Positions 1,100 through 29,782 of a stretch of 29,782 nucleotides of DNA are shown here, piece after piece. The DNA is taken from positions 1 through 29,782 of the IMG/VR virus record IMGVR_UViG_3300019360_000181. One strand, given 5' to 3'. Every line of letters starts with the position of its first letter. Position 1 is the first letter of the stretch. This stretch comes from a virus. The position numbers were made by a program, and so were the translations under genes. The notes under the pieces were generated by a model, which saw nothing but the letters and a program-made list of their open reading frames with translations, had not been told where the DNA came from and did not search any database.

Positions 1100-3727
1100 G
1101 TGCCAACCCGTCGGGAGTTGGAGGCCATGCGCCACGCGGCGATAGATCAAGTTACTCAAAGAGCCGAGAACGCGAAGTCAGATTCGGACTTCACGTACTT
1201 CTTCACGCTTCTCCTCCTAGGTGAAGCGTTGGCGAAGGCTGCCGTGCTGGGACTCGTCGCGGCGATTGGAGACGACAAGGATCGAAACCGCTATCGGCTC
1301 GAGCACCAGCTAGTCCACGCCGACGGAGTCGGCGATTGGGGCCGTGTGGTCGAGGACGCGCTAACAGGACAAGCAGCGCAGTTCTTGATTGCTGAGGCTA
1401 GAAACGAGCAGGCGGAGTTGACCAGACTGACTCGCAAGGGTGACTGGCAATACGACTCAGTTGCGGCGCTAAGGGCCACGCTCGAGCTGTTGGACATCGA
1501 TGCTGAAGCCCTTCCGGTGAAGACCGACATGAGGCGGTGGTTTCGGCTCTTCGCAACGCTACGAAACAAAACCAGGGCGCATGGGGCAACTCAACCCGCA
1601 CGCGCCAGCGTGGCTGCCAACGACTTGGCCAAGTCGATCCAACTCTTCTATGACAACTGCTCGCTCTTTTCGCGGCCTTGGGCGTACCTTCACCGGAACC
1701 TGTCGGGAAAGTACCGTGTCTCGCGGATCACGCAGGACGGCGGGGCATTCGACTTTCTGGCCAAGCAGTCTGATCACTCGTTCCCCAATGGTGTCCACAT
1801 CTTCCTCGGTAAGCCTCGGCACATCCCGCTCTTTCAGACGGATCCGGAACTGCAGGACTTCTTCCTGCCAAACGGGGGCCTGACTAGTAAGCGCTATGAG
1901 CTCTTGTCCTACTATTCAGACAATAGACGCGACGGTGATCTTAGCTCCTATATAACTCCGCCAGGTACACTTCCACCCAGTGAGACTGAGGGACATGGGG
2001 AGCTAATCGCTCAGGACCAATGCCTCTCGAACGTGCCAGATCTCTCTACAGAGTACATCCCACGTCCGAGGCTCGAGGAAGAACTCAATCGCCTCCTCGT
2101 GGACGATAGAAGGCCAATCATCACACTCGTCGGGAGTGGAGGAATTGGCAAGACATCGCTCGCTCTTAGCGTCGTTAGGAGACTGTTTGGGAGCAACCGC
2201 TATGAAGCGATCATCTGGTTCAGTGCTCGAGATGTTGATCTTCAGCTTAGCGGTCCGAAGCAAGTTAGGCCGAGTGTGATCTCTCCTGACGACATCAGCA
2301 AGCTGTACGCGCGCTTGGTCTGCTCGGAAGCTGTCTTGGAGAGCAGAGACTTCAACCCACGGACGTTCTTCGAGCAGCAGCTCCAGCGTTGTGACTTGGG
2401 CTCAACGCTCTTCATCTTCGATAACTTCGAGACAACCCAAAGCCCGATCGAGACGTTCAACTGGATCGAGTCATTCATTCGACTACCCAACAAAGCGCTC
2501 ATCACAACCCGCCTGCGGGAGTTCAAAGGAGACTACCCTGTTGAAGTTCAAGGCATGGAGGAGCCCGAAGCGCTTGCTCTAATCAACCAAACCGCAGCTC
2601 GGTTGGGTATCACCAAGTTGATTGACAAGGAGTATGTGGAGAAGTTGATTGCGGAGTCGTCTGGTCATCCTTATGTCATCAAGATCCTGCTCGGGGAGGT
2701 TGAGAAGCGCCGAAGGGCAGCGAACATTCCTCAGATCGTCGCAGGCAGTGAGGACATCTTGATCGCGCTCTTCGAGCGAACCTACGCCTCATTGTCTCCG
2801 TGTGCACAACGCGCCTTCTTGACGCTATCGGCTTGGAACTCTCATGTGCCTCGCTTGGCTCTCGAGGCAGTCCTGTTGCGTTCCACCCAAGAGCGAGATG
2901 AGGTCGAGAAGGGGATTGAGTCCTTACTCCAATTCTCGCTCGCAGAGCAACGAGATGCCCCAACGGACAAGCAACCATTCATGTCTCTTCCTCTTGTAGC
3001 AAGCGTGTTCGGGAGGAAGAAGTTGAATGTGAGTCCCTTCAAGGCCGGGATTCAGTCAGACGTTGAGTTGTTGCAGATGCTCGGCCCGAGTCGTCCTGGC
3101 GACATTCACCTCGGGCTGGCGTTGCGGCTTGAGCGTTTCATCGCCAACATCGCTCGACGCGTCGAGGCAGGCGAGTCATTCGAGGAATTCGAACCGATCC
3201 TCGAAATGATCTGTCGCAACTACAACCCCGGCTGGCTAATCCTGGCTAGATGGCACATGGAGACCCGTTCCTCAGAGGGTTACGAGAGCGCCAAGCGCGA
3301 ATTGAGGCTCTTCCTCGAGAACGACCCCGATGCTACCGAGGCGCCCGAGGCTTGGTTGATGCTTGGACACGCCTGCTACCAAACGGGAGAGCTGCTAGGT
3401 GAGATACATGCCTTTGTCGAGCGCGCTCAACTGAGCTCGGTTCCGTTCAATGACCTTTCGAGTACGGCCAACCGCCTGAACCAACTGCTGCGGGAGCGCC
3501 CGGAAATCGGCAGGGAGGCGCGCCGGAGCCTGGCTCAACGGCTGATGGGGGCGCTAGACAGACGCCGTAGTCAAGCCGATGCTGATGACTTCTCTCGCAT
3601 GGCTTGGGTTGCGATACATGCTGGACAAGAGTCAAAGGCTCTGACGTACGCGGAGGCCGGCTTGAAGCTTGATCCTTACAACATACACTGTCGTAAGGTT
3701 GCGGAAAGACTTCGCAGAGAGAGTTGA
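1100..3727 (+). CDS. HEPN-STAND (NB-ARC-like) NTPase, defence-type
   Basis: An 875-residue cytoplasmic protein of STAND architecture. The central NTPase has a P-loop GSGGIGKTS at 345-353, a Walker B strand TLFIFDNFE at 436-444, a sensor-like KALITTR at 465-471 and a GHPYVIKIL motif about 50 residues later, matching the order in NB-ARC ATPases. The N-terminal 190 residues are helical and contain RNKTRAH (R155 to H161), the Rx4-6H signature of HEPN ribonucleases and RNA-binding domains. The C-terminal 250 residues are helical and TPR-like (for example EAWLMLGHACYQTGEL, KALTYAEAGLKLDPYN) and would act as sensor. By analogy with bacterial NLR-like defence proteins, ligand binding would drive oligomerisation and unleash the HEPN effector; this is inference. 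The start is uncertain: GTG 1100 gives the longest frame, ATG 1127 is the alternative. It follows the broken glycosylase by 38 bases. Confidence 0.8.
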   Translation: MPTRRELEAMRHAAIDQVTQRAENAKSDSDFTYFFTLLLLGEALAKAAVLGLVAAIGDDKDRNRYRLEHQLVHADGVGDWGRVVEDALTGQAAQFLIAEARNEQAELTRLTRKGDWQYDSVAALRATLELLDIDAEALPVKTDMRRWFRLFATLRNKTRAHGATQPARASVAANDLAKSIQLFYDNCSLFSRPWAYLHRNLSGKYRVSRITQDGGAFDFLAKQSDHSFPNGVHIFLGKPRHIPLFQTDPELQDFFLPNGGLTSKRYELLSYYSDNRRDGDLSSYITPPGTLPPSETEGHGELIAQDQCLSNVPDLSTEYIPRPRLEEELNRLLVDDRRPIITLVGSGGIGKTSLALSVVRRLFGSNRYEAIIWFSARDVDLQLSGPKQVRPSVISPDDISKLYARLVCSEAVLESRDFNPRTFFEQQLQRCDLGSTLFIFDNFETTQSPIETFNWIESFIRLPNKALITTRLREFKGDYPVEVQGMEEPEALALINQTAARLGITKLIDKEYVEKLIAESSGHPYVIKILLGEVEKRRRAANIPQIVAGSEDILIALFERTYASLSPCAQRAFLTLSAWNSHVPRLALEAVLLRSTQERDEVEKGIESLLQFSLAEQRDAPTDKQPFMSLPLVASVFGRKKLNVSPFKAGIQSDVELLQMLGPSRPGDIHLGLALRLERFIANIARRVEAGESFEEFEPILEMICRNYNPGWLILARWHMETRSSEGYESAKRELRLFLENDPDATEAPEAWLMLGHACYQTGELLGEIHAFVERAQLSSVPFNDLSSTANRLNQLLRERPEIGREARRSLAQRLMGALDRRRSQADADDFSRMAWVAIHAGQESKALTYAEAGLKLDPYNIHCRKVAERLRRES

Positions 3728-5141: not shown

Positions 5142-6155
5142 CTATACCAGGGCCCTGCTGGCAGCAGCGCGTTTGGCGTCTTCAGTCGTGTGCACGTAAC
5201 GCTGGGTCGTCGCTAGGTTCTTGTGGCCGAGGATCTCCATGAGCGTGCGGAGGTCCGTTCCATTGAGGAGCATTTCCGACGCAGCGCTGTGTCTCACTCC
5301 ATGAAGCAGAGTCCAGCGCTTGTAGAGCCCCGCCGCCGAGAAGGCTCTCCGAAGAGGCTTAGATACCTCGCTGAGCCTCCGTCGCGTGCTTCGTGCTGTG
5401 AAGAGCCAGTCTTCGTCAGAATTGAAGCGTTGTACTCGCCGATACTCGTTGAGCATCGACACGACGGGCGAGGGAACATAGACCCTTCGACGCTGATAGG
5501 TCTTGCTCTCCCATCCATCCTTTGGTCGCACAGTGATCGAGTCACCGTCAACGTCGCTCCACTTCAAGTGAAGAATCTCTTGACGTCGAAGTCCAGTCGA
5601 AGCGGCCAAAGCGATCAGTAGACGAATGCGCGGGTCGGCGGTTGACTGAAGAAGCTTGCGCACGTCCGAGCGAGACAAAAGGACAATCTCGCGTGGCGTC
5701 GCACGCAGCATCCGCACTTTGAAGGGCAGCTCGCGGATGATCTCCTCATCGACTGTGAGGTGTAGAGCGGCGCGAAGGATTCGGAGGTCAGCGTTGACTG
5801 AGTTTGCGCAAACTCTCTTCCGACGGACTGAAATGAACTCGGAGAGATCCTCCGGCGTGAGTTCTCGAACCGGGCGATCTCTGAAGTGCCGGAGAAGCGT
5901 CAAGCATGAGTATCTCGCGCACTGGACGCTCTTCGGCTTTGAGAACGTCTCCTGTCGTTTCAGGTAGCGTTCGCAGACTTCTCCGAATGTTGCTCCTGAC
6001 TCAGTCGCAGAGACGCGCCGAAGACGTGCATGTGCCTCGAGCGCCTTGGCGTAGTCGTTTCCCACGCTTCGTAGTCGGAACGATCCATCGCTGCTCTTGA
6101 ATTGGACGTAGTACGACTTGCCCCGTAACTGGAGGCCCTTCGGGAGTGGTCCCAT
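5142..6155 (-). CDS. int: Tyrosine recombinase (phage-type integrase)
   Basis: A 337-residue site-specific recombinase that would integrate and excise the element by cutting DNA through a tyrosine. N-terminal arm-binding segment at about 1-50, SAM-like core-binding domain at about 55-145, catalytic domain at 155-337. The catalytic set is complete: R190 in TGLRRQEIL, a lysine near 218, H285-x-x-R288 in LHGVRHS, H311 in ILGHKNL and the nucleophile Y320 in QRYVHTT. Length is normal. The gene lies 79 bases from a tRNA-Thr 3' fragment (6235-6280) that is its likely attachment core. The ribosome binding site is weak. Confidence 0.95.
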   Translation of the reverse strand: MGPLPKGLQLRGKSYYVQFKSSDGSFRLRSVGNDYAKALEAHARLRRVSATESGATFGEVCERYLKRQETFSKPKSVQCARYSCLTLLRHFRDRPVRELTPEDLSEFISVRRKRVCANSVNADLRILRAALHLTVDEEIIRELPFKVRMLRATPREIVLLSRSDVRKLLQSTADPRIRLLIALAASTGLRRQEILHLKWSDVDGDSITVRPKDGWESKTYQRRRVYVPSPVVSMLNEYRRVQRFNSDEDWLFTARSTRRRLSEVSKPLRRAFSAAGLYKRWTLLHGVRHSAASEMLLNGTDLRTLMEILGHKNLATTQRYVHTTEDAKRAAASRALV

Positions 6156-6234: not shown

Positions 6235-6280
6235 TGGAGCCGACGGCCGGACTCGAACCGGCGACCTGCTGATTACGAAT
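6235..6280 (-). other. tRNA-Thr(CGU) 3' fragment, probable phage attachment core
   Basis: Read on the minus strand this is the 3' half of a tRNA: anticodon loop TTCGTAA (anticodon CGU), 3' anticodon stem TCAGC, variable AGGTC, T arm GCCGG-TTCGAGT-CCGGC, 3' acceptor strand CGTCGGC, discriminator T and encoded CCA at 6235. On the 5' side the match to a tRNA stops exactly at the anticodon loop: no GCTGA stem partner and no GCCGACG acceptor partner follow. That is the pattern left by tyrosine integrases that recombine in the anticodon loop and carry the 3' half. The integrase gene lies 79 bases to its left. Confidence 0.85.
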
Positions 6281-6602
6281 AGTCCGCGCTCGGTGACGCA
6301 AGACCGCGCTAACCAGCTCTCCTGTCTGTGGTTTTCCGCATGCTACCACGTCGCGCCGTGAGCTCGTGTACCAAGGATTTTGGTACACAGACGTGCCGAA
6401 GGGGGGCATTCTCGACCTGTCTCTCTACGACTTACTGCGTAGTGCAGGGAGCCGGCAACTCATGTGTCGTGGCCGAGATACTCGCCGCGAGCTATCTTCG
6501 GCCTTGAGGCCGGGCGTCGTTGCCTTCGGAGTAGTTTCTCTCTGGTATTGAAGAGTTACTTCCGGGTCTGAAGACTCCCAGCGAGTCTCTACCAGCGAGC
6601 AA
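6281..6602. other. Non-coding stretch with a palindrome
   Basis: No gene seen between the tRNA fragment and the small ORF at 6663 on either strand. It holds the 23-bp palindrome at 6366-6388 and, near 6303-6322, a D-arm-like string (AGCTGGTTAG on the minus strand) that does not fold into a complete tRNA. It may hold integrase arm sites or an operator. Confidence 0.5.
6366..6388. repeat. Perfect 9-bp inverted repeat, operator-like
   Basis: GTGTACCAA, a five-base spacer GGATT, then TTGGTACAC: a perfect dyad with 9-bp arms. It is not followed by a T run on either strand, so it is a protein-binding site rather than a terminator. Its place between the attachment core and the rightward genes fits an operator or an accessory recombination site. 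Confidence 0.6.
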
Positions 6603-6662: not shown

Positions 6663-6854
6663 ATGGACGATCAGGAGACGATCCGGGCCGAGATCAAATG
6701 CGCTGCGCTCCTCCTCCTCCTGGCGCTAAAGCGGGCGCTCGATCGAGATCTCATTCCGCATGACGAGCGGGTCCTTGAGGTCGTCGCCATGCTCGCGGAC
6801 CAGGGTAGCGGTCTATTCGAGGCGCAGGTGACGAAGGAACCGAGGTCCGACTGA
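6663..6854 (+). CDS. Small helical protein, unknown
   Basis: A 63-residue acidic protein with a leucine-rich helix (IKCAALLLLLALKRALDR) and a second helix (HDERVLEVVAMLADQG). AAGG lies about 8 bases before the ATG. Its 3' half overlaps by 104 bases the C-terminal tail of the methyltransferase on the other strand, so one of the two ends may be wrong. The 16-bp element upstream, shared with the methyltransferase, argues that it is a real gene. Confidence 0.45.
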   Translation: MDDQETIRAEIKCAALLLLLALKRALDRDLIPHDERVLEVVAMLADQGSGLFEAQVTKEPRSD

Positions 6855-7470
6855 GTTCAGGGCACTCGACGGGCACTCTCTCCTCGCGGAGCCTCTCCCA
6901 GACCAAGGCACATCGAGGTCGATCTATCTCGATCCCGATCGCGTTGCGGCCCTCGAGGTGAGCGGCGATCAGAGTCGTTCCCGACCCGCAGCACGGGTCG
7001 AGGATCCAGTCCCCGGGACGCGTCAACATCCGGATGAAGGCCTGCGCTTCCTCGATGGGTTGCTCCCACTCGAACCACTTCTTCGACTTACCTCCTCCCT
7101 GGAGGATGTCGACAAACGGAAGCACGGTGGGGCGGTACGGCGGCCGGTAGAAAAGCGCGTAAGGCTTGCCACAGGTCCGAACGTGCTCCCTGGCTCGGAA
7201 GTAACTCCCCGAGTGGATCACCTTCCCTAGCCACTGGTAGCTAAGTCCACGACCGAGCAGCTGGAGTATCTCCGGCAGGTACTTCGCACCCGTGTAGGTC
7301 AGAAACGGCGCTCCGGGCTTGAGCACGCGACCCGCAACGAGGCTCACGTCTCCCCAGAGGGGGAGGCACGGTCGGATGTAGGGCAGGTCAGTGATCACCG
7401 CGTCGAAACGGGCGTCCGGGCAGATCTTCAGTAGTTCTCGGCAGTCTCCATTTAGCAGTCTGATTGTCAT
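6751..7470 (-). CDS. DNA methyltransferase, beta class (N4-C/N6-A type)
   Basis: A 239-residue protein of the N6_N4_Mtase family that would transfer methyl from S-adenosylmethionine to adenine N6 or cytosine N4 in DNA. The catalytic motif IV is TDLPY (27-31), where DPPY or SPPY is usual; the SAM-binding motif I, LDPCCGSGTTL, follows at 157-167. This order is that of beta-class enzymes. The ATG at 7470 is set by AAGGAG 8 bases upstream; the longer frame upstream of it is not protein-like. The last 35 residues (from about 205) are rich in Pro, Arg and Ser and overlap the plus-strand 6663 ORF, so the true end may be earlier. There is no restriction partner; phage methyltransferases of this sort usually protect the genome or act in regulation. 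Confidence 0.85.
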   Translation of the reverse strand: MTIRLLNGDCRELLKICPDARFDAVITDLPYIRPCLPLWGDVSLVAGRVLKPGAPFLTYTGAKYLPEILQLLGRGLSYQWLGKVIHSGSYFRAREHVRTCGKPYALFYRPPYRPTVLPFVDILQGGGKSKKWFEWEQPIEEAQAFIRMLTRPGDWILDPCCGSGTTLIAAHLEGRNAIGIEIDRPRCALVWERLREERVPVECPELSRTSVPSSPAPRIDRYPGPRAWRRPQGPARHAE

Positions 7471-7579
7471 CTTCAGCTCCTTGATTGACGGCACGAAGGC
7501 ACGTCCAAGGGGCTGACTTCTTCTTCTCTGAGAAACCTCTTCTCGGCTGACGGGAAGCTCTTCAGCTCGTCGTCCGCAA

Positions 7580-7595
7580 AGAGAAAATACTCTTC
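7580..7595 (-). promoter_or_regulatory. 16-bp element, copy 2
   Basis: The reverse complement of this stretch is GAAGAGTATTTTCTCT, identical to 6603-6618. It is placed 110 bases upstream of the methyltransferase ATG and points towards it. Confidence 0.5.
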
Positions 7596-7714
7596 CGGCT
7601 CTCGGGAGATACTCGACGTTCAACTGTGTCGCTCCTGATCTCGTCTGATCCCTGCTGTCGCAATCAAGCACTCACCTCTGGCTGCCGATCGAGCGGTCAG
7701 GATGGAGGTGAGTC

Positions 7715-8139: not shown

Positions 8140-8355
8140 ATGCTTCGAGCAGCTCTGCTCGCTGGCGTTCTGTTGTTTGCATCCACGGCAAGAGCTGAGT
8201 GGCCCCCTGGCTCTGCGGACGAGATGGAGCAGAAGTACGAGTGTCAACAGCAAGGAGGATGCGGAGGGTCTTCCTCCGGTGGAAGTATCCTCGTCTGGCT
8301 CGTGACCATCGGGATCGGGATCTGGCTCACGAGTAGAGGGGAGAAGCAGCGGTGA
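8140..8355 (+). CDS. Small exported or membrane protein
   Basis: A 71-residue protein: signal peptide (LRAALLAGVLLFASTARA), short acidic segment with CQQQGGCGGSSSGG, one C-terminal membrane helix (SILVWLVTIGIGIWLTS) and a basic tail. It starts 2 bases after the stop of the STAS-like gene. Family not recognised; phage small membrane proteins of this size are often lysis or exclusion accessories, but nothing here proves that. Confidence 0.55.
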   Translation: MLRAALLAGVLLFASTARAEWPPGSADEMEQKYECQQQGGCGGSSSGGSILVWLVTIGIGIWLTSRGEKQR

Positions 8356-8412
8356 GCTCGCTATCAGAATCCTCACCTGGCGCTCCAGGCTGCGCCGTGG
8401 CAAGACTTCGCG

Positions 8413-8436
8413 CGAGGGGCTTACCTAGGTCCCTCG
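8413..8436. other. Hairpin after the small membrane-protein gene
   Basis: CGAGGG and CCCTCG form a 6-bp stem around GCTTACCTAGGT, itself containing the palindrome ACCTAGGT. There is no T run, so termination is only possible, not shown. Confidence 0.35.
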
Positions 8437-8456
8437 GAGAACAATACCAGAGGCGA

Positions 8457-8485
8457 CTCACTGCTCATCTTCCCCTATCAGTGAG
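8457..8485. repeat. Dyad CTCACTG/CAGTGAG enclosing a copy of the CATCKTCCCCT motif
   Basis: Perfect 7-bp inverted repeat arms (8457-8463 and 8479-8485) enclose CTCATCTTCCCCTAT. The inner motif is the one repeated in tandem at 8771-8839, about 300 bases to the right. Confidence 0.5.
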
Positions 8486-8516
8486 TGGGCAGCAGGAAGT
8501 GAGTCGGCAGGAGGAC
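8481..8516 (+). repeat. Two 18-bp tandem repeats
   Basis: GTGAGTGGGCAGCAGGAA is followed at once by GTGAGTCGGCAGGAGGAC (15 of 18 identical). The second unit also supplies an AGGAGG ribosome binding site to the broken ORF that begins at 8525. Confidence 0.45.
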
Positions 8517-8524
8517 GCGTTGAA

Positions 8525-8731
8525 ATGACGTTGGTGGAAGCAAGAGCGCTCATTCAACTGAAGTAAAGCGAGGAACTCAACAAAGCCACGGGTCCTGAAA
8601 GGGCGACTCTTCACGCGAAGTCCAGGGCCAAAAGTACTAACGACGCGTATGCCCGTGCGCTTCGAGACCATCCCGTGGTGATGGCTGTGGCGCTCCATGA
8701 GTTCGTCGTGAAGAAGAGCGGCAGCAGCTAG
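8525..8731 (+). pseudogene. Small ORF interrupted by an in-frame TAA
   Basis: From ATG 8525 (GGAGG 10 bases upstream) a 68-codon frame runs to TAG 8729-8731 with one TAA at 8564-8566. Both parts look coding: LVEARALIQLK before the stop and SEELNKATGPERATLHAKS then HPVVMAVALHEFVVKK after it. The string QLK-stop-SEEL fits a former GAA glutamate codon. Family not recognised. Confidence 0.4.
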
Positions 8732-8770
8732 GATCCCCGTCTTGCGATTTGGCACTCTCAAGTACGCGCC

Positions 8771-8839
8771 TCACTCCATCGTCCCCTATACTGACTCATC
8801 GTCCCCTATAGTCACTGACTCACTCCATCTTCCCCTGTA
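8771..8839. repeat. Three 20-bp direct repeats upstream of the ncRNA promoter
   Basis: TCACTCCATCGTCCCCTATA (8771-8790) is followed directly by CTGACTCATCGTCCCCTATA (8791-8810), then nine bases, then TCACTCCATCTTCCCCTGTA (8820-8839). The core CATCKTCCCCT also occurs at 8464-8478 and 8975-8986. Spacing of two helical turns and a site 28 bases before the -35 box fit regulator binding sites; an iteron-type origin is the alternative. Confidence 0.7.
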
Positions 8840-8866
8840 AATCTGCATTGGCACTCACTTTTCTGC

Positions 8867-8895
8867 TTGCTTTTTTCGAGTGATTGCCGTATAAT
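8867..8895 (+). promoter_or_regulatory. Sigma70-type promoter
   Basis: TTGCTT at 8867-8872, exactly 17 bases, then a consensus TATAAT at 8890-8895. The predicted start is near 8902. No open gene follows for almost 700 bases, so the transcript begins with the structured region at 8902-9540. Confidence 0.7.
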
Positions 8896-8901
8896 TGTCT
8901 T

Positions 8902-9540
8902 GCTTCGAGAAGACGCTCCCCGCGCGGGTCGAGCGCACTGATTGCAGCCGTCTCTGGTCATACAGACCAGGACGCATCGTCCCCTTGTTCGTGTCCATAT
9001 CCACGACCAAGCGGGACACGAGAGCACGAGGTGCCATCCTCGCTCGTAGAAACGGGTGACCCCCGTTAGAAAGGGCTGCGCTCCTCTGTTGATGCAGAGA
9101 GAGCGCATCAGCTATTCAGCGGGCAGCGAGAGCTGCTCGCAAACTCCCCGCTGACTTCCATAGATGGGAATACCCGATTGCCGGTGGGAACCGGCTGAAA
9201 CACGGGGGAGCGCTTGTGGTCGCATCGTCAGTGAAGACCATTCCAGTTTGAGGAGCGCTGGACTTCCTTCTGTCTCTCCTCGATCCCGTGCAAAGACCGA
9301 GAGCGCGGGCTCAGCTCAAGAGACAGATACGACTGACTGGATTACCGGGAATAGACGGAGTGATCACCCCGAGTAGTCAGTCGCAACCCTAACGGGGAAG
9401 GGAAGATGGAGGAGCGTCAGCATGCCCGCAGCTCGCGAAAGCAGAGCTGTTGGCAAGTCAACGCAATCCACAGGTCTTCCCTGAACTGGAAAAGAGCAGG
9501 GAGACCGAAGGTCCCCCCGAGCTCTGCCCGACATCAAGCC
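8902..9540 (+). ncRNA. Candidate large structured non-coding RNA
   Basis: Downstream of a good promoter lies about 640 nt without a convincing gene but with many perfect helices in series. Arms seen: 8954-8959/8965-8970; 8989-8996/9014-9021 (8 bp); 9027-9031/9038-9042; 9051-9056/9062-9067; 9077-9088/9095-9107 (12 bp, one bulge); 9117-9123/9147-9153 enclosing CAGC-GAGA-GCTG; 9180-9185/9190-9195 with GGGA loop; 9217-9221/9236-9240; 9271-9277/9319-9325; 9331-9338/9375-9382 (8 bp); 9429-9434/9444-9449 enclosing GC-GAAA-GC; 9473-9483/9497-9506 with an internal loop. Three hairpins end in GNRA tetraloops, but only when read on the plus strand. This density, size and phage setting resemble GOLLD and ROOL RNAs, though I recognise neither consensus. 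It ends about 40 bases before a small gene at 9580, so a very long leader is the alternative. No tmRNA, RNase P or intron hallmarks are present. Confidence 0.7.
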
Positions 9541-9579
9541 CGCACTGAGCCCAGCTCATCGCGTGGAATAGGAGACGCC

Positions 9580-9774
9580 ATGACCCCAACTATGCCCGAG
9601 CTCAACCAGGAGATCGTCCGAGTGAGCCAATCACTCCGCGATCTTCCCCCTCGCACCAAAGCCCATCCGCTCGACTGGTCTACCCAGGAGATAGAACTCA
9701 CTCGACAGCTCTGCGCGTTGATCCATTACAAGCGGGATGCAGCTCGTCGCTTGGTCGGAGATCCGTCGGAGTGA
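9580..9774 (+). CDS. Small helical protein, unknown
   Basis: A 64-residue protein (MTPTMPELNQEIVRVSQSLR at the start) with two amphipathic helices. AGGAGA 5 bases before ATG 9580 fixes the start; the frame is open further upstream, but that part is inside the structured RNA region and is not protein-like. Its TGA overlaps the GTG of the AP2-domain gene by 4 bases, so the two are translationally coupled. No family recognised. Confidence 0.6.
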   Translation: MTPTMPELNQEIVRVSQSLRDLPPRTKAHPLDWSTQEIELTRQLCALIHYKRDAARRLVGDPSE

Positions 9775-10112
9775 AGATCCCCGCCTTCATCGAGCTATGT
9801 GCTCTGCACGCAGCGACGTGGAATTCCTCCCGCCAGGCTGCGCCAGTTGAGCCAGGTTCAGCGCAAGACACTCACCCTGATTCGGAAGACCGCCGCGGAT
9901 ACTTCCCGCACTACAACACCTGGAAGAACAAGAAGGACGATCTACCGCTAGGTGTCTACCGCTGGAAGGGATGCTCCGGCTACGTCGCGAAGTTTGGCAC
10001 TCGCTACCTAGGGACGTTCTCGACGATCTCCGAGGCTGCCGAAGCCTACTGGCAAGCGCGACGAGAAGAGGAAGCTACACCAGCTGCGATACTCGGAGTC
10101 TCGCTCCCGTAG
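9771..10112 (+). CDS. AP2/ERF-like DNA-binding domain protein
   Basis: A 113-residue protein whose residues about 60-100 form an AP2-type DNA-binding fold: LGVYRWKGCSGYVAKFG, then RYLGTFSTISEAAEAYWQA, matching the family pattern GVY...W.A.I...YLGTF.T..EAA.AY. In phages such domains usually accompany HNH homing endonucleases; here no nuclease domain is attached, and the N-terminal 55 residues are low-complexity. It may be a stand-alone regulator or a remnant of a homing gene. GTG start at 9771 overlaps the previous stop. It converges on the secreted TSP3 gene. Confidence 0.7.
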   Translation: MKIPAFIELCALHAATWNSSRQAAPVEPGSAQDTHPDSEDRRGYFPHYNTWKNKKDDLPLGVYRWKGCSGYVAKFGTRYLGTFSTISEAAEAYWQARREEEATPAAILGVSLP

Positions 10113-10126
10113 GAGTCTTTGCGGCG

Positions 10127-12355
10127 CTATGGGAACGCCGGGTCGAAGAGCCTGAAGTCGTCCAGGTAGATCTGCTCGCCGCCCACACGCCCCGCGCCTT
10201 CGTTGAGGTTCCATTGAATCCTGAACCTGCGGATCTCGGACAGGTTGATGGTGTTGTTGGCCTCGTCCCATCCGACCGTCGGATCGATCTCATACTCCTT
10301 CCAGACACCATGAGGAACCTCATTCGTGCCGAAGTACCAGATTCGGTTCGCGTTCGACACACTGCTTCCATGCGATGACAGAGTCACCCGGAAGCCATCG
10401 CTTGCTCCGAAGTGAGACGTATCTGGGACCAACATCCAGAACCGCAGCCGCTTGCCTGTCCAGTCCGACGCGGGAATCGTGTCATTGATAGCAGCATCAG
10501 CCGTGGGGCTCGTCGAGACCACCCGCAAGGATCCTGCCCCTTCGACTTTGATGAGCGGTTCGTCGAAACGTTGCGCCGACGTCGAAGTAAATACTGAAGC
10601 TTGACCATCCATCGAATACAAGACGGTGGTCACGTCGTGCGGAACACCCGGGCAGATGTCCGCCAGTGGTGACCCCAACGGGTCCGCCAGGTAGGCTCTC
10701 AGCTCCGAGACATCGGCTGCGGTACATGCTCCCGCAACGATGAAGTCGCAGCGATTCGCCGTATACGACACGGGTACTGTCGCGGCCGCGAGTTTTCGCC
10801 GGACGAAACTTGCATCGATGATGTTGACGGCAGCATCTCGGTTCAGGTCACCGCAGAACCCAAGAGCCGACTCAGGATCCCTCGGATCTGACCCTTGCGC
10901 GATCTCTACCTGATCGGAAACCCCGTCATCGTCAGTATCCGCGTCGGTTGGATCTGTTCCGTAGGTCGCCCACTCGAGCCAGTCCGAGAGCCCGTCGTTG
11001 TCGGAGTCTGAGTCAGAGTCTGAGGTTCCTGCAATCTGCTCTAGCCGGAGCGGCATTCCATCGCCGTCGGCATCGGTATCTCCAGGAAGGCCCGAGGTTG
11101 GATCGCAAGCGTCTCCGACGGTGTCGTCGTCTTCGTCGGCTTGATCTCCTACACCTGGAACGTTGACCTGGTCCGGTCCGTTCGGAACGGCTGGGCAGTT
11201 GTCGCAAACGTCACCCCACGTGTCGTCATCGCGGTCGAAGTTCGAAGCGTCACGTTCGTTTGGACAGGAATCGCACTGATCGGGCCAGCTATCGATGTCG
11301 TGGTCCAGCTGATAGTGATCCGGCGTCTCAAGAGAGTCCTGGACACCCTCGCACCTATCGCAGAGGTCGCCAAAATTGTCCTGATCTGCGTTGGCTTGGT
11401 CCGGATTGAATCCGTTGTTTGTGGGTCCCCAACAGTTGTCGTCACAGCCTGGGGGGCTCGGGCTCCCGAGCACACCGCAGATCTGTCCTCCATGCTCAAC
11501 GTCGTTCTGGTCTCCATCGTCGCAGACCCCATCGCTGTCGGTGTCATCACCTCTGTCACTGCATCCATTCGTCAAGGGACCATCGCAGATTCCGAAATTG
11601 CAGGTCTGTCTCTGGTTCCCGACTGCAGGACCGCATGCTTGTCCATGGGGGCGTTCGGTCCCGTCGCTGGTGACACACTGTTGGGCGCACTCGCAGTCTT
11701 GCCCTGTTGGCGACGACCAGGCGTGCATCTGCACGCAGGTTGGGGCCGACATGTTCCCATTCCAGTTCCCTGGACCGAAGAGATCACCCGGAGGCGCACT
11801 CCCTATGAAGTAGGGGTTCATTGTGCGGTGAATGAGTGCCGTTCGAAGGTAGTCATTCGCGAGCGCTACTACATCCTCGGGAGGGAAGACAGCATTGTTC
11901 CGCGCGAGGAACATCGCGCCTCCGGCCTCGAGGACGATGCAGGCACTCGCGTTTGGAGTGCCGAGAGGACCTCCACAGACCGTGATTGCGTCGACGACGG
12001 TCACGGAGAAGTTCCCGTGCGCTTGGGTAGCCGCTTGCGCACACGACAAGAGGTTACCTTCCACGGCGTCACTAATGGTCGCGCACGAAGCAGGAATCAG
12101 AGACGGCAGGACTACGATGTCGACGGTTTGACAGCAGGTGGAATCAAAGAGCCCTGCTGCGTCGCCATCGCGGAGACACAAGCCAGCAACGTAGTTCTGA
12201 ATGTTCGACTGAAGAAGCTCGCCCGGATAGTCCTCTATCAACGACCGGAGCTGGATCGAGAAGATGTTCGTGCGGTTGTTCGTACACAGCTGCGCGTGAG
12301 CACTCTCCCCAACCAAGAGAACTGCGATCGCAGCAAGACAGAGTCGAGCTATCAC
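10127..12355 (-). CDS. Secreted protein with thrombospondin type 3 repeats and dockerin-like segment
   Basis: A 742-residue exported protein. Signal peptide 1-21 (ending ESAHA). Residues 22-265 form a Cys-containing domain of unknown type. From about 268 to 495 come acidic calcium-binding thrombospondin type 3 repeats (DTDSDGVCDDGDQ, DRDDDTWGDVCDNCP, DADTDDDGVSDQVE). Residues 500-569 resemble a type I dockerin (CGDLNRDAAVNIIDASFVRR, then CTAADVSELRAYL). The last 165 residues are a beta-rich, carbohydrate-binding-like module (YSMDGQASVF, IYLDDFRLF). Its role is probably adhesion or surface attachment; no enzyme domain is evident. The GTG start overlaps the stop of the upstream gene (GTGA), so it is the last gene of the coupled secreted operon. 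Such a protein is unusual as phage cargo. Confidence 0.8.
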   Translation of the reverse strand: MIARLCLAAIAVLLVGESAHAQLCTNNRTNIFSIQLRSLIEDYPGELLQSNIQNYVAGLCLRDGDAAGLFDSTCCQTVDIVVLPSLIPASCATISDAVEGNLLSCAQAATQAHGNFSVTVVDAITVCGGPLGTPNASACIVLEAGGAMFLARNNAVFPPEDVVALANDYLRTALIHRTMNPYFIGSAPPGDLFGPGNWNGNMSAPTCVQMHAWSSPTGQDCECAQQCVTSDGTERPHGQACGPAVGNQRQTCNFGICDGPLTNGCSDRGDDTDSDGVCDDGDQNDVEHGGQICGVLGSPSPPGCDDNCWGPTNNGFNPDQANADQDNFGDLCDRCEGVQDSLETPDHYQLDHDIDSWPDQCDSCPNERDASNFDRDDDTWGDVCDNCPAVPNGPDQVNVPGVGDQADEDDDTVGDACDPTSGLPGDTDADGDGMPLRLEQIAGTSDSDSDSDNDGLSDWLEWATYGTDPTDADTDDDGVSDQVEIAQGSDPRDPESALGFCGDLNRDAAVNIIDASFVRRKLAAATVPVSYTANRCDFIVAGACTAADVSELRAYLADPLGSPLADICPGVPHDVTTVLYSMDGQASVFTSTSAQRFDEPLIKVEGAGSLRVVSTSPTADAAINDTIPASDWTGKRLRFWMLVPDTSHFGASDGFRVTLSSHGSSVSNANRIWYFGTNEVPHGVWKEYEIDPTVGWDEANNTINLSEIRRFRIQWNLNEGAGRVGGEQIYLDDFRLFDPAFP

Positions 12356-13284
12356 TGCTGGTCGCCCTGAGATCCGCGAAGTTCAGCTCGCCGCCTCTCT
12401 AACCGCGCGTCCAAATCTCCCGCAGGACAGTCCGGTAGCGTGCCCCACCGGACGAGAATGACGAACGGGAGCGCCTTCGGGTCCTGCGGCTGCTCGTTGA
12501 ACCATGCCCAATACTCATCGCCGGGTAGATTCGGATGTTCGTTCAGGTACTGACTCACTGTCCTTCGTGAAATGCGAAACTGGCCAGGCCCGTAATAGCA
12601 GTTCGAGAGCTTATCGAGTCCGCGCCGCGCTCGACTGCGCATGATCGCCTCGATGATCTGTAGCTCCGAGACATCCGGATTGAATGAGAGGAGCATCACC
12701 GGGCCGCCCTCGATTCGCTTTGCCTCAAGCTCAGCAGAGCTGTAAGGGGATTGATCCGATCCCATCTCGCGTAGGCTCAGCGGTTGACTCGGCACTTGCC
12801 CTTGACGAATGAGCCGCTCGCGCTCTGCCAGTAGCTTCGCCGTCACGTCTCCCCTGGGGCAGACTACTCCCTTCGGTAGAGGGTACGTATATGGGGCGTA
12901 GATCATTAGCGGCCTGGGGCTCACACTGGGGTCTTCGGGCTCGTCCATGAGAGCCTGGAACTTCTCTGCCGGATCCATGTACCGGGTTTGGATGAGTATT
13001 TCATCGATGCGCTCATCAGAGACTCGGCGTTCTACGGGTCCGTAGTGACAGTCCTCTTTGTCGGCGCCTGTGTCCGCACGGAGTCGGATCGATGCGTCTA
13101 CTCTGTCGATCTCAGAGAGACTCGGATCCCATGGCTTGCCGACGTGGTCTGGATCCGGCGTCAGCTCGCTTCGTCCCCCCGATGCAGCGCCAGGGATCGG
13201 AGATCCGACGGGGCCGCTCTGTTGAGCTTTCGCCGCCAGCGGCAGCACGAGGAGGACAACGCTCACGAGTCTCAGTACGGACAT
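12352..13284 (-). CDS. Secreted protein with two copies of an unnamed domain
   Basis: A 310-residue protein with signal peptide MSVLRLVSVVLLVLPLAAKA (1-20). I chose ATG 13284 because the longer frame upstream has no signal and is not protein-like. Residues 79-159 and 229-303 are two copies of one module: both begin C-H/Y-YGP, have R-V/I-S about seven residues later, a P-x-EDP/QDP segment in the middle, and end with CPxGD-V/L-x-A-K/R-L. Each copy keeps two cysteines that could form a disulphide. I do not recognise the family. The gene ends in a 4-base overlap with the TSP3 gene, so the two products are made together and probably work together outside the cytoplasm. Confidence 0.7.
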   Translation of the reverse strand: MSVLRLVSVVLLVLPLAAKAQQSGPVGSPIPGAASGGRSELTPDPDHVGKPWDPSLSEIDRVDASIRLRADTGADKEDCHYGPVERRVSDERIDEILIQTRYMDPAEKFQALMDEPEDPSVSPRPLMIYAPYTYPLPKGVVCPRGDVTAKLLAERERLIRQGQVPSQPLSLREMGSDQSPYSSAELEAKRIEGGPVMLLSFNPDVSELQIIEAIMRSRARRGLDKLSNCYYGPGQFRISRRTVSQYLNEHPNLPGDEYWAWFNEQPQDPKALPFVILVRWGTLPDCPAGDLDARLERRRAELRGSQGDQQ

Positions 13285-13599
13285 GAGAGCAGCTTTCGAG
13301 AGCCGCCTCTCCAAGTCAAGAGGACTTCTTGCGACTACGAAATCCACGGAACTACGGGATCTCGACGACGCGAGCGCTAGCCAAGGACTCCAGCTGAGGC
13401 CACTCCTCTCCATGGGGAGAACGTGAGGCAGGTGAACCAGCAGTACGGCGAGCAGTGGTGCGGGCCGCTGCATCTCTAGTGCTCCTTGTCCTTTCTCCTG
13501 GTCTCACTTTCGTGGCCTGTCCTGGAGCTGAGGCCTCCTGTCGACTCCGGGAATGGCAAGACCTACGCGCCTCCCCTCGAGCGGTCGACCTGCGAGTCA
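13285..13599. other. Intergenic stretch, nothing recognised
   Basis: 315 bases between the exonuclease stop and the two-domain secreted protein. Open frames exist on both strands but are rich in Arg and Ser and lack start signals; I see no gene, repeat or terminator. Confidence 0.4.
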
Positions 13600-15216
13600 C
13601 TAAGAACACCGAACCCTGTGGACTCTGCTCTTCTCGGGCATGGTGATCGTCCTATGCTCGCTTGCCCAGATCATCTTGAGATATACGTCGGCGTGGCTGT
13701 CATCCCCTTTTCCGTGATTGCCTCGGACTCTCCCTGCCCTCGTGCAGCCCAGCCAGAAGGAGTCATGGATCTCGGTTGGGGCACCGGTGGGCCTTCGAGC
13801 GTCACCCTCCTCACTCACATAGGTGAGGAGCACGCCTCCGCCCTGATTCGTTGGAACAAGAGTCACTCTGAGTGTCCCAAGTCGAGTATCGCCGAGCAGG
13901 CGCTCCTCCATGACCCCGAAATTGATGTTGACAGGTCGCCGAGTGGCTCGTTGCTGGATGCTGAAGGTCGGAACGTAGCGCTTCACATCTGCCCACCTTA
14001 GATCCCGTCGTGGTGGGCCAACCCAATTTGCGTCATAAGTGCCACCGGATTGAGGAACGAAGTCATAGTCTGAGATCCTGAACTGGGTCAGCTCGTTGAA
14101 GCAGCCAGGGTCACCTGTCGGAGCAGGCACGGGAATCGGGTTCTGGCTCGTCACCGCGTCGTAACGAAGAAAGGAAGTCATGATGTAGGGATCAGTCAGC
14201 AGCGCATCCTTCACCGAGGTGTCGACGGTAGAGGCGCCTTCCCGGCGAAGTGCCCCGGCCGATCCAGGAAACGCCTGCGGACGACCTACCCAGATGATGT
14301 CCGCCCAATCCAGATCCTCTGACGCTGGATAGAAGCTACTGTAGATGACTTGGCGCACGTCGGAAGAAAGTTCCGTGCAATTGAAGTCTCCCGCCAGTAT
14401 CGGAGTTAGGTCACCGGGTTGTTGCCACGAGTGGATCGCGGCCATTAGCTCGACGAGTTCCTTGAAGACCCTGACCTGACCGTTCTTAGCGTTCGACATA
14501 TGAACCGAATAGAACGGAACGATCATGCCGGAGGAGAGAACCGTGAATCGCGCACCCACAACGTGGCGCTTCATGCCTCCGACCTGTGTGACTTCGAATG
14601 TGAGCGCTCTAGGACTCCCTGCGACCATCTGGACGAGGGTTGATCCGACATAGCCGTTCATACCGTACTGACCGCTCGCGCTCGAGTTAGTCAGGCCTTG
14701 TCGGAAGCACTCGACCGGAAAGAGCAGCTGCCGGTTGTTCCCGCAAGGTAGAGGCTTAGGGGTCACCCGTATCCCGCGTAATTCTTGTCCGAACACCGAC
14801 GGGAACGTGAAACGAGTCCCGTGGAGTTCTTGTAGACCAAGAAGTCCCCACGTCTGCGGTCCGACGCTTTGCTCGAATCTCCTCGCTAGCTCACGAAGCC
14901 GGGCGACACTGCTCTCGTCGTCGTCGCCTTGCCTCTCTTCAACGTTCAACGTTGAAACTGCGAGTAGCTGCGCGTTTTGACCCCCGGCCTGCCCCGTCGG
15001 GGTGACCTTGCAGCGCTGTTCTCCCGGACTGCATTCTGTTGCGGTTGGCGCGGAGTCTTCAGCAGTCGATGAAGTGACTATGTCACTCGCATCGCTCCGC
15101 TTGAGATTGTCCGCGTAGCTCGGGAGAGCCAACAGCGAACCGACGACGAAGACAGAAACCGCGAGCCGCAGACAAATTCCAAATGAGTCCCAGCTCGAAC
15201 GAAGCCTACACCCCAC
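13600..15216 (-). CDS. Secreted endonuclease/exonuclease/phosphatase-family protein
   Basis: About 538 residues. An EEP-fold phosphodiesterase is shown by the strand LLGLQELHG with the metal-binding glutamate (E130), VPFYSVHMSN (233-242), and PILAGDFNCTE with the GDFN motif at 276-279. Members cleave nucleic acids or phosphate esters; the substrate here is unknown. The usual C-terminal SDH motif is not evident, so activity is not certain. A hydrophobic signal segment (LRLAVSVFVVGSLLALPSYA, 17-35) follows the GTG at 15216, chosen because frames upstream belong to other genes; it lacks a clear ribosome binding site. Residues 44-80 are homologous to the Cys-rich peptide encoded at 16907-17191, with most cysteines lost. 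It lies in the secreted operon, after a frameshifted small gene. Confidence 0.7.
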   Translation of the reverse strand: MGCRLRSSWDSFGICLRLAVSVFVVGSLLALPSYADNLKRSDASDIVTSSTAEDSAPTATECSPGEQRCKVTPTGQAGGQNAQLLAVSTLNVEERQGDDDESSVARLRELARRFEQSVGPQTWGLLGLQELHGTRFTFPSVFGQELRGIRVTPKPLPCGNNRQLLFPVECFRQGLTNSSASGQYGMNGYVGSTLVQMVAGSPRALTFEVTQVGGMKRHVVGARFTVLSSGMIVPFYSVHMSNAKNGQVRVFKELVELMAAIHSWQQPGDLTPILAGDFNCTELSSDVRQVIYSSFYPASEDLDWADIIWVGRPQAFPGSAGALRREGASTVDTSVKDALLTDPYIMTSFLRYDAVTSQNPIPVPAPTGDPGCFNELTQFRISDYDFVPQSGGTYDANWVGPPRRDLRWADVKRYVPTFSIQQRATRRPVNINFGVMEERLLGDTRLGTLRVTLVPTNQGGGVLLTYVSEEGDARRPTGAPTEIHDSFWLGCTRAGRVRGNHGKGDDSHADVYLKMIWASEHRTITMPEKSRVHRVRCS

Positions 15217-15247
15217 GACGAGACAGAAATTGGCAAGAAGTCGGGAT

Positions 15248-15582
15248 TCAGTGGAACTCGCGCGACCACCACCTGGGTCTATCTCGGCCTGCCCTGATGG
15301 TGTCTCGGAGGAACAGGCATTCCTCTCGGTGATCCAGCTTCTCCCACACCTCTGGGGGAAGACTCTCTGCAAGCCGCCGTCGTGAAATGTCAACGAACTC
15401 GAATAGCGTGCGGGGCTCCGAGGATCCACCTTTGCGGCTTCGGCGAGGACTCGTCCTCGCATCACCGCTTCGATCTGAGTGTTGTAGATACCCATGGCGC
15501 GAAAGGCGCCGTCTTGTTTCAGCCGCCGTCGCTTGTCTCGTGTCGGAGTGACCCGATAGTCGCCGCTCGTTCGGCCTGGCAT
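15248..15582 (-). pseudogene. Small gene with a frameshift
   Basis: From ATG 15582, with AGGAGAG 7 bases upstream, a coding frame reads MPGRTSGDYRVTP, then RDKRRRLKQDGAFRAMG and IEAVMRGRVLAEAAKVDPR. At about 15420 the coding character passes to the next frame: TLFEFVDISRRRLAESLPPE, VWEKLDHREECLF, RPRWWSREFH, stop at 15248. A single-base indel restores one basic, helical protein of about 110 residues. No signal peptide, unlike its neighbours. It sits between the metallo-beta-lactamase and exonuclease genes. A true mutation, a sequencing error or programmed frameshifting are all possible; no slippery site is obvious. Confidence 0.55.
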
Positions 15583-15620
15583 GGTGTCTCTCCTTGGAGC
15601 CCCGAACCACCTGCCCGTCT

Positions 15621-16910
15621 CTATCTCGCTGTTGTCACAGCAAGTGTCCCATCCATTCTCGCCGTGATGTCCACGTTCCCATCCCAGCCGGTCGCGTAGA
15701 TCGCTTTGGTCATCGTCTCCGTCTTGAAGTCCTTCACCGCAGTCGCAATGTGGACTCGCTTGGACGGACGAGTCAGCGACACAGCGTGCTCGAGCATGTC
15801 CACCGCGGTGTCTCGCGGATGCCCATACTGCCACGCGGTCCACTGCGTCTCGCGGTCGAACGGTCCCACAGAGATCAGCGCGACTTTCGGAGACATCGCT
15901 CCTAGGAAACTCGTCGTCGAGCCGTTGTACGAGCCGTGGTGCCCGACGTGGTAGACGTCGATGTTCAACCGCGGTGTCCCATCGTAGTAGTCGACGAGTG
16001 TCTCGATCGCCGGCTCTTCGAGATCGCCGCTGAACAAGAAGGAAGCGCTTCCGAAGTCAACTCGGATAACGAGTGAATGGTTGTTCTGGTTCGCGAACTC
16101 ACCTTGCGGCCAACCTGGATTGGACGCGACGTGGCCAGAGAGAACGGTGATCTTCGGATCGACCTGGCCACAGTCCACAGGATCGATCGTGCCATCGGTA
16201 AGGCCCGACTTGTTGCCTCCGCCGACTACTTCCGAATCCTCGACGGATCGCTGGACAACAGTCCGCCCATCGTCGTTCGCGTGATCTCTCATCCACTTCG
16301 CGTTCGCTGAACCAGAGCCGTTATAAGTCCCGTTGTGGACGTAGCGCTCGACCTTGAACGTCTCGACCACCTTGCGAAGAGCGCGGTTGTGATCCACGTG
16401 CGTGTGAGTCGTGAACTCAACCGCGATGGTCTGGTTGAGATCGGTGCGCCGCCGAAAGAACGCCGATAGATAGTCGACTAGTGTCTGCGTCGTGTCGGAG
16501 TTCTCTCCGCCTGCATCGATCAAGACCGCCGCGCATGGAAACTCGAGCAGAGTTGAATCGCCTTGGAGAAGGTCGATGAAGTGCGCGGTCATTGTGCTCG
16601 CGCCAGCTCCGCCGGCAGCAGCGGGCTGTGTCGGCTGACTCGGCGGCCCGGCGACAAGATCAGTCCACGCCTTGCTGACGAAGCCCTCGACTCCCGATGT
16701 CAGCCGAACCTTGTAGTAACTCGGGACGTCGTCCAGAAACTCGGCAGTCTCACCAGGTGACAAGGATCCAATCCGATCCCCAGTCGAACTTGGCTCCGCG
16801 CGAACGATCACGCGGGTGACGACTCGATCCGAAGGGACAACTTGGTCAGCTCGCGCGAGTGACGAAACCGCGAGGAGCGCGAGCGCAGCACAAAGGAGGA
16901 ATTGGCTCAC
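15621..16910 (-). CDS. Secreted SH3b plus ComEC-like metallo-beta-lactamase hydrolase
   Basis: A 429-residue exported protein. The GTG start at 16910 overlaps the previous stop (GTGA) and opens directly into a signal peptide (VSQFLLCAALALLAVSSLAR). Residues about 28-86 are a bacterial SH3 domain (VIVRAEPSSTGDRIGSL, YYKVRLTSGVEGFVS). From about 107 a metallo-beta-lactamase fold of the ComEC/Rec2 type begins: HFIDLLQGDSTLLEF, IDAGGEN, the metal motif THTHVDHNRAL with H169, H171, D173 and H174, then FLFSGDLEE and YHVGHHGSYNGS. Relatives are ComEC C-terminal domains and secreted nuclease-like hydrolases; the fused SH3 domain suggests attachment to cell wall or a surface polymer. Partners in the operon include an EEP phosphodiesterase, so extracellular nucleic-acid breakdown is a fair guess. 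Confidence 0.85.
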   Translation of the reverse strand: MSQFLLCAALALLAVSSLARADQVVPSDRVVTRVIVRAEPSSTGDRIGSLSPGETAEFLDDVPSYYKVRLTSGVEGFVSKAWTDLVAGPPSQPTQPAAAGGAGASTMTAHFIDLLQGDSTLLEFPCAAVLIDAGGENSDTTQTLVDYLSAFFRRRTDLNQTIAVEFTTHTHVDHNRALRKVVETFKVERYVHNGTYNGSGSANAKWMRDHANDDGRTVVQRSVEDSEVVGGGNKSGLTDGTIDPVDCGQVDPKITVLSGHVASNPGWPQGEFANQNNHSLVIRVDFGSASFLFSGDLEEPAIETLVDYYDGTPRLNIDVYHVGHHGSYNGSTTSFLGAMSPKVALISVGPFDRETQWTAWQYGHPRDTAVDMLEHAVSLTRPSKRVHIATAVKDFKTETMTKAIYATGWDGNVDITARMDGTLAVTTAR

Positions 16911-17191
16911 CGGCAGACCTCGCTCGCGTTGCAAGCGCATCCTCTGCCCTTGTGACACGTGTAACTCGCGCTGATGCACGAGTTCCCGCACGCTTGCCCC
17001 TTCGTGCAGATCTTGCAGCACTGCTCACGAGGGATGCAGCTTCTTGCAGCCAGCGCCGACTCTTCAGCGGCCGGTGAAGCGACCTCGCTGCTCGTCCCCT
17101 TGGACTCGTCACCGGAGCTCGTAGAGGGGGAGACAAGGGAGAACGCGAACAAGAGGACGAGGACAGCGAGGGTAGAGCGCCAGTTCAACAC
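16907..17191 (-). CDS. Small secreted cysteine-rich protein
   Basis: A 94-residue exported protein with signal peptide (LAVLVLLFAFSLVSPSTSSG) and a compact C-terminal domain with nine or ten cysteines from residue 52 (CIPREQCCKICTKGQACGNS, then CISASYTCHKGRGCAC). From memory, similar CCKICxxGxACGxxC modules occur as separate small proteins or as tails of extracellular nucleases in several proteobacteria; I cannot name the family. Overlaps of 7 bases with the DUF3892-like gene and 4 bases with the metallo-beta-lactamase gene show tight coupling. A degenerate copy of residues 35-70 is fused to the exonuclease encoded at 13600-15216. Confidence 0.7.
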   Translation of the reverse strand: MLNWRSTLAVLVLLFAFSLVSPSTSSGDESKGTSSEVASPAAEESALAARSCIPREQCCKICTKGQACGNSCISASYTCHKGRGCACNASEVCR

Positions 17192-17708: not shown

Positions 17709-18152
17709 ATGTCGTGGCGCGAACGAACACTTGGAGAGCTCTGGACCGGGACTCGAGTCGCGTGGGAGCGGTTCTGGTCGGGAGTCGACTGGGCAAAGAA
17801 GTGGCGCGATCGCTTCGTCACCCTTGGGGTGATCGCTGGAGCAATGGGTCTCTACACGTGCCTACGCCTTGAGTACCCCGAAGCCTTCACCGCGACCGGA
17901 CCGAGACGAGCACCGGAGATTGTGCGCGTGGAGCCGCCAGGAAGGACCCCTGAGTCACCCGAGCCGCTGCCGCCTGTCTCAGCTGCGCCGACCCCCACCC
18001 CGGAGACCCCGACCGAGGTCATCACGGATCCGAACGATCCGAGATACCTCGCTCCCCCGGTTCTGATCCAGATCCCCCAAGGTGCCCAGGCTCCGACGAA
18101 ACAACCACAAGACCGGGGACGTGGGGTCTTGACGGGTGGGTCGTTCCGCTGA
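17709..18152 (+). CDS. Single-TM protein with proline-rich tail
   Basis: A 147-residue protein: basic, Trp-rich N-terminus (MSWRERTLGELWTGTR), one membrane helix (FVTLGVIAGAMGLYTCL, about 36-52) and a long proline-rich, probably periplasmic tail (PESPEPLPPVSAAPTPTPE). ATG 17709 was chosen because the frame upstream is not protein-like. The layout recalls TonB-like or spanin-type spanning proteins, but no family motif is visible. Confidence 0.55.
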   Translation: MSWRERTLGELWTGTRVAWERFWSGVDWAKKWRDRFVTLGVIAGAMGLYTCLRLEYPEAFTATGPRRAPEIVRVEPPGRTPESPEPLPPVSAAPTPTPETPTEVITDPNDPRYLAPPVLIQIPQGAQAPTKQPQDRGRGVLTGGSFR

Positions 18153-18156
18153 CCCC

Positions 18157-18194
18157 AAAAAAGAACCCCGCCTGATTCTCGCGACCAAGCGGGG
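18157..18194 (-). terminator. Intrinsic terminator (minus strand)
   Basis: Read on the minus strand: CCCCGC (18194-18189), a loop, GCGGGG (18171-18166), then TTCTTTTTT. It lies 34 bases after the stop of the 54-residue gene at 18228-18392 and would end the minus-strand transcript that includes it. Confidence 0.7.
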
Positions 18195-18227
18195 CTCCCC
18201 CGTGAGTTGAGTTTTTTGAACTGTCTT

Positions 18228-18392
18228 CTACTGCGATGGATCGAGCGGTTCTCGCCCCTTGCGGATGATCCCGCGACCTCGGGGAACGAACGTCCCGCGA
18301 GCGATCGCGTGACCCTTCGCGAGTGCGCCGAAGAGCGCACCCCCAAGGATCAATCCAGCCAGTATCATCATCACCGTATCCTGATTCAGCAT
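18228..18392 (-). CDS. Small membrane protein, 54 residues
   Basis: Short gene with a very good ribosome binding site (CGGAGG, 6 bases before the ATG). One membrane helix (TVMMILAGLILGGALFGALA) and a basic tail (RGRGIIRKGREPLDPSQ). It is followed by an intrinsic terminator. Size and layout fit a phage small membrane protein such as a holin-like or exclusion protein; the sequence does not decide this. Confidence 0.6.
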   Translation of the reverse strand: MLNQDTVMMILAGLILGGALFGALAKGHAIARGTFVPRGRGIIRKGREPLDPSQ

Positions 18393-18470
18393 GTCCAACC
18401 TCCGTAGTGGTGAGTGAGGGAAGGGAACCGGTCGGAGGGATGTTGAGTCCCTCCGACCCCGTTTCCGAGT

Positions 18471-18866
18471 TCAGCTCGCTTGCTTCGCAGCTTCCGCGAG
18501 CGCAGTCAGTGCCGCGGTCGCAACCGCGATTGCGCGATTCAGCTTGGTTCCGACTGACCGAGCCTTCGCGACCTTCCGAGGTGCGTCCGCGTAAGCGTCC
18601 TCGCTGCGCTTGTGGTCGTTCGCGTTGTACTTCGCGACGAGTCTCTCGAAGACATCGCAGCGACCTTCCGAGTAGAACCGAGCGAAGTAAGCTCGGAACG
18701 CTCCACCCGAGAACCAGGTCGGATGCTGTGAGTAGTGACTGCTCTCCCACTTCTTGAAGTGAGCGAAGTCCACGTCGTAGCCCTCTTCGCGCATCTGCTC
18801 GAAGAGGATCTCAGTGGACTGCCTGTTGATCCCGGTGAACGTCTTGGTCTTGTGGTCTGAGTACAT
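18471..18866 (-). CDS. Conserved-looking hypothetical protein
   Basis: A 131-residue soluble protein. The N-terminal two thirds contain aromatic-rich segments (FAHFKKWESSHYSQHPTWFS, AYFARFYSEGRCDVFERL), and the C-terminal third is an Ala-rich helix. AAGGAA 7 bases before the ATG supports the start. Not recognised. It is probably co-transcribed with the 54-residue membrane protein gene downstream. Confidence 0.6.
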   Translation of the reverse strand: MYSDHKTKTFTGINRQSTEILFEQMREEGYDVDFAHFKKWESSHYSQHPTWFSGGAFRAYFARFYSEGRCDVFERLVAKYNANDHKRSEDAYADAPRKVAKARSVGTKLNRAIAVATAALTALAEAAKQAS

Positions 18867-29699: not shown

Positions 29700-29782
29700 G
29701 ATCTGCCTTCTCTTCGTACTCCGCCGGACTGCAATAGTCGAGGGTCGAGTGCAGGCGGCGGCGGTTGTATCTCGCCTCGATC
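29661..29782 (-). mobile_element. IS3-family insertion sequence, right end only (second copy)
   Basis: Exact reverse complement of 1-122; base 29660 also matches by chance. The terminus begins TGGACTAACC at 29661 and the transposase C-terminus reads on the minus strand. It is inserted in the prohead protease gene. The remainder lies beyond the window. Confidence 0.92.

Follow-up and report, generated by a model that had tools for sequence, protein, structure and literature searches.

What lies in the roughly 850 non-coding bases between the end of a broken-looking open reading frame (ORF) at 8731 and the start of a gene at 9580 in an IMG/VR viral record, and does it act on its own or for the genes behind it? 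The whole 29,782-base record was analysed and is here called the window. Three CATCKTCCCCTRTA repeats, a promoter candidate and a structured RNA candidate follow one another in this stretch. Our answer, well supported and drawn from a single sequence, is that 8902-9577 very likely encodes a large structured plus-strand RNA of a phage-like contig, one that matches no known family.

Genes and gene remnants recognised in the window include:

5142-6155, minus strand: tyrosine integrase
about 6238-6285, minus strand: 3' half of a tRNA-Thr(CGT)-like gene, adjoining the integrase, read from the sequence
6751-7671 and about 19286-20165: DNA methyltransferases
9580-9774, plus strand: 64-aa gene with no assigned function, codon score +8.1 (small positive)
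9771-10112, plus strand: 113-aa gene, codon score +25.5 (clear positive), match to PHROG 953 (E 1.8e-5)
25574-27445: large terminase
28037-29542: portal

The tRNA-Thr(CGT)-like half at 6238-6285 is probably an attachment site; its 5' side is not a proper tRNA half, yet a D-arm-like GAGCTGGTTAGCGC is present there. Cargo atypical of phages was seen at 10127-17021 and 20211-20747 (minus strand) and at 1100-3727 (plus strand), namely TSP3/dockerin-type, SLATT-like and NB-ARC proteins and a protein combining SH3 with a ComEC-like metallo-beta-lactamase, the last weakly similar to defence-associated MBL proteins. The contig ends form a perfect 123-bp inverted repeat (1-123 and 29660-29782), whose translation (IEARYNRRRLHSTLDY...) resembles, in our view, the C-terminus of an IS3-family transposase; the assembly was probably broken at two inverted IS copies. 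The ORF at 8525-8731 has a Shine-Dalgarno-like GGAGG and one in-frame TAA, at codon 14 (MTLVEARALIQLK*SEELNK...GSS), and may be a pseudogene, a sequencing error or a case of stop readthrough.

That about 640 nt here are free of genes, as the earlier note on this DNA had claimed, is borne out by a codon model for which ten confident genes of the window served as the training set: scores were negative for the tested ORFs inside the RNA on both strands and positive for the genes at 9580 and 9771. The 64-aa product of the first of these genes had no Pfam, PHROG or PADLOC match. The 113-aa protein is similar to phage HNH endonucleases (PHROG 953 and 99) in their C-terminal part only; we presume a resemblance to AP2, a call that Pfam did not make.

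The fold of this non-coding stretch is far better than that of dinucleotide shuffles. On the plus strand, the folding energy of 8902-9580 is -306.1 kcal/mol (z -8.5, 20 shuffles), 8902-9540 gives z -7.2 (100 shuffles) and 8902-9577 gives z about -7.1 (200 shuffles), while the contig background averages z -0.39 (sd 1.29) for plus-strand 200-nt windows and -0.73 (sd 1.63) for 640-nt tiles. Neither flank has excess structure (8352-8900, z 0.1; 9580-10112, z -0.3). Elsewhere in the contig, the most foldable 640-nt tile, 18001-18640, has z about -4.5 on both strands and no inverted repeats of 12 nt or longer. The structured features are:

8902-9577, plus strand: structured RNA candidate, outer limits
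8936-9239, plus strand: domain I, branched, with GNRA loops GAGA (9128-9131) and GGGA (9186-9189); z -7.1 on plus, -5.8 on minus
9241-9491, plus strand: domain II, with closing helix 9241-9249/9483-9491 (probability 0.90); z -6.5 on plus, -4.8 on minus
9399-9482, plus strand: rod of domain II, capped by GAAA (9437-9440); z -8.4 on plus, -5.0 on minus

Each domain is significant independently. In all, 19 helices of 4-10 bp have a mean pair probability of at least 0.9, the longest uninterrupted one having 10 bp. The earlier note had counted at least twelve helices of 5-12 bp and held that random sequence rarely gives such a series; the second statement agrees with the z scores of -7 to -8.5, and the first stands as to number but not as to the 12-bp helix, which was not seen. 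The region 8902-9540 that it had delimited is indeed structured, but strong structure stops near 9491 (9493-9577, z -1.8).

The minimum free energy (MFE) structure also forms the three GNRA-closed hairpins proposed earlier, with GAGA at 9128-9131, GGGA at 9186-9189 and GAAA at 9437-9440 all as hairpin loops. This is an excess, as the shuffles averaged 0.295 such loops and none of 200 reached three. The further claim that these loops fix the plus strand as the RNA holds in part: that strand is favoured, but folding of the minus strand is unusually strong as well (z -6.1 to -7.5), near-equal folding being expected when most pairs are Watson-Crick. Our choice of strand rests on the GNRA loops, on the better folding of the plus strand for both domains, the rod and sub-domains 8949-9047 and 9052-9217 (the short hairpin at 9330-9383 being the exception, with no plus advantage, among the tested pieces), and on A-rich unpaired positions, a modest excess (A fraction 0.417 against 0.393 in shuffles, reached by 14 of 200). 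The promoter candidate points the same way. Counting against the plus strand, 9519-9497 on the minus strand resembles a terminator hairpin, which could stop leftward transcription.

Upstream of the RNA lie two features that bear on its expression:

8777-8839, plus strand: cluster of three CATCKTCCCCTRTA repeats (starts 8777, 8797 and 8826), upstream of the promoter
8867-8895, plus strand: promoter candidate read from the sequence, with -35 TTGCTT (8867-8872, 3/6), a 17-nt spacer and -10 TATAAT (8890-8895, 6/6)

The predicted transcription start is about 8902. The perfect TATAAT and the 17-nt spacing are as first described, but the promoter is weaker than that description suggested, with a -35 matching at three of six positions and no call for 8867-8895 by a consensus promoter scanner. 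Allowing up to two mismatches, CATCKTCCCCTRTA has six matches in the window against 0.39 expected, and a fourth near-copy lies at 8466-8479. The cluster probably represents binding sites of a putative regulator, and its place just upstream suggests that the promoter is regulated. A related copy occurs within the RNA at 8971-8985 (GACGCATCGTCCCCT). Positions 9400-9411 of the RNA are exactly complementary to 8823-8834 in an upstream repeat (12 nt, reached by 9 of 2000 shuffles); we set antisense pairing aside, since this match was chosen post hoc and the site is inside a predicted helix.

Relatives of the RNA were sought at several levels. Against phages and plasmids, blastn returned short chance matches only (E 0.2 or more). 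Degenerate-pattern scans derived from RNA-frame translations, which reach close relatives only, had no positive control and could be escaped by a diverged family, confirmed no relative in viral contigs (IMG/VR) or GTDB genomes. The neighbouring proteins encoded at 9771 and 7715 had no relatives in viral contigs, nor did the 9771 protein match phages by tblastn, and the integrase search gave one distant relative. The terminase has 76 viral and 18 genomic relatives at identities of up to 49%; judged by these nearest terminases, about 50% identical, the phage itself is isolated. Nothing real was found by blastn of the RNA against 68 terminase-related sources (50 viral records and 18 genomes), nor any homolog in about 480 further genomes (nearly 400 from the large phylum of an Ensifer genome and 85 from that of a Poribacteria MAG), and a covariance model built from the one rod sequence (9396-9491) and run on 83 sources and 299 genomes recovered only the window itself. 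As none of the searches yielded a homolog, support for the fold comes from the single sequence and not from covariation.

Structure beyond chance in a non-coding phage stretch places the candidate in the general kind of large structured phage ncRNA. We judge it just probable that it is a discrete provirus ncRNA of about 560-640 nt, from an undescribed family analogous to ROOL and GOLLD and not a member of either. The z scores of the whole fold, the significant domains and rod that fold better on the plus strand, the GNRA excess, A-rich unpaired bases, unstructured flanks, non-coding ORFs and clustered repeats favour this reading; the lack of a homolog, the foldable minus strand, the weak -35, the lack of a convincing plus-strand terminator and the start of a gene 88 nt past domain II, behind a good Shine-Dalgarno, count against it. 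Transcription, strand and ends of the RNA are what we infer from these features. The plus strand would be transcribed from the promoter with perfect -10 and poor -35, probably with a phage regulator bound at the upstream repeats; the RNA would fold into two branched domains, one with the long GAAA-capped rod, and the three GNRA loops would probably dock in helices. Least certainly, the RNA may be a structural scaffold that acts by itself, as an oligomer or together with a protein, in the manner proposed for GOLLD and ROOL, rather than through base pairing with target RNAs.

The strongest competitor, to which we give a lesser though serious chance, is a long structured 5' leader of the gene pair at 9580 and 9771 that would control their translation or transcription; it might, for instance, sequester the Shine-Dalgarno in a stem formed with the RNA's 5' end. 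We found no convincing plus-strand intrinsic terminator between the RNA and the 9580 gene, and in the MFE structure bases 8916-8919 are the pairing partner of that gene's Shine-Dalgarno (GGAG, 9571-9574); the same 5' bases can instead pair with 9205-9212 at a cost of only 1.4 kcal/mol in 8902-9620, which is switch-like. However, the probability of the Shine-Dalgarno pairing is 0.68 only for an RNA with its 3' end at 9577, and drops to 0.05-0.39 once the fold takes in more of the gene; the switch was not retained, its outcome varying with the chosen 3' end. The downstream genes are moreover small, with unassigned functions, and length and structure exceed those of usual leaders; so much structure is rarely seen in leaders longer than 600 nt. 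In our judgement a leader is possible but less favoured than a stand-alone RNA, given the extent of structure and two large closed domains that stop 88 nt before the start codon.

Two further explanations appear improbable. One is a DNA-level structure, a replication origin or similar site in which iteron-like repeats and DNA hairpins accompany an AT-rich stretch. Unusually good folding on both strands would suit it, as would the iteron-like repeats beside the T-rich stretch 8800-8899 (38 T and 17 A per 100), but the GNRA loops and the plus-strand advantage of the domains point to RNA, and the genes scanned nearby included none recognisable as encoding a replication protein.

The other, which we doubt to much the same degree, is that the RNA belongs to a known class of large RNAs or ribozymes but has diverged beyond recognition by covariance models. 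Size and setting are ROOL-like (PMC12286853) and comparing a single sequence with models has limited power, but 8700-9800 had no plus-strand match in cmscan even at E up to 10, nor did the ROOL model (RF03087) match when run alone (without a positive control). The sole weak Rfam match was sX14 on the minus strand, at chance level (E 3.4). At gathering score, cmscan of the window gave no plus-strand Rfam match, the models including GOLLD, ROOL, OLE, HEARO, introns, RNase P and tmRNA; the earlier note had recognised no consensus and pointed to the GOLLD, ROOL, OLE and HEARO models as the check. A tRNA and tmRNA search found none. For a self-splicing intron of group I or II there is no covariance match and no split gene around 8900-9580. 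Chance hairpins or a decayed, functionless element would fit an orphan sequence and the in-frame stop in the neighbouring ORF 8525-8731, but the z scores (-7 to -8.5), together with the excess of GNRA loops, make this very improbable.

Returning to a discrete ncRNA, a new class of RNA, as the earlier note had raised, is no more than possible on the one sequence at hand. More speculative, and in our view rather unlikely, is the fuller proposal of a new class of large ornate phage RNA that has no sequence relationship to GOLLD, ROOL or OLE; a regulated provirus promoter would drive its expression, and it would assemble into an RNA-only or RNA-protein particle.

Four known RNAs invite comparison. 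OLE is likewise ornate and about 600 nt long; the candidate has no covariance match to it, and OLE is not found in phages. It occurs chiefly in Gram-positive Bacillota that are extremophiles or anaerobes (PMC12054373). HEARO resembles the candidate as a structured RNA 5' of a gene partly similar to HNH endonucleases, yet here there is neither an Rfam match nor an IsrB-type ORF downstream, the 113-aa protein being far too small for IsrB. GOLLD and ROOL, both encoded by phages, assemble into RNA-only cages of 14 and 8 chains, respectively, which exceed ribosomes in size and have no known function (PMC12286853). Like GOLLD, the candidate is large and phage-borne, its 5' and 3' domains are separate and one of its loops is GAAA (PMC12286853); it differs in lacking a covariance match, and GOLLD members often exceed 800 nt (PMC12286853). 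With ROOL (RF03087) it shares a length of about 600 nt, a phage or prophage setting, many short helices and a position near tRNA-derived sequence (PMC12286853), and differs in having no match to the ROOL covariance model. It is our guess, by analogy, that the candidate works as these two do. If it is another, unrelated RNA of the GOLLD/ROOL kind, this would suggest that phages have evolved such RNAs repeatedly, and a further example would help to tell their general features from class-specific ones.
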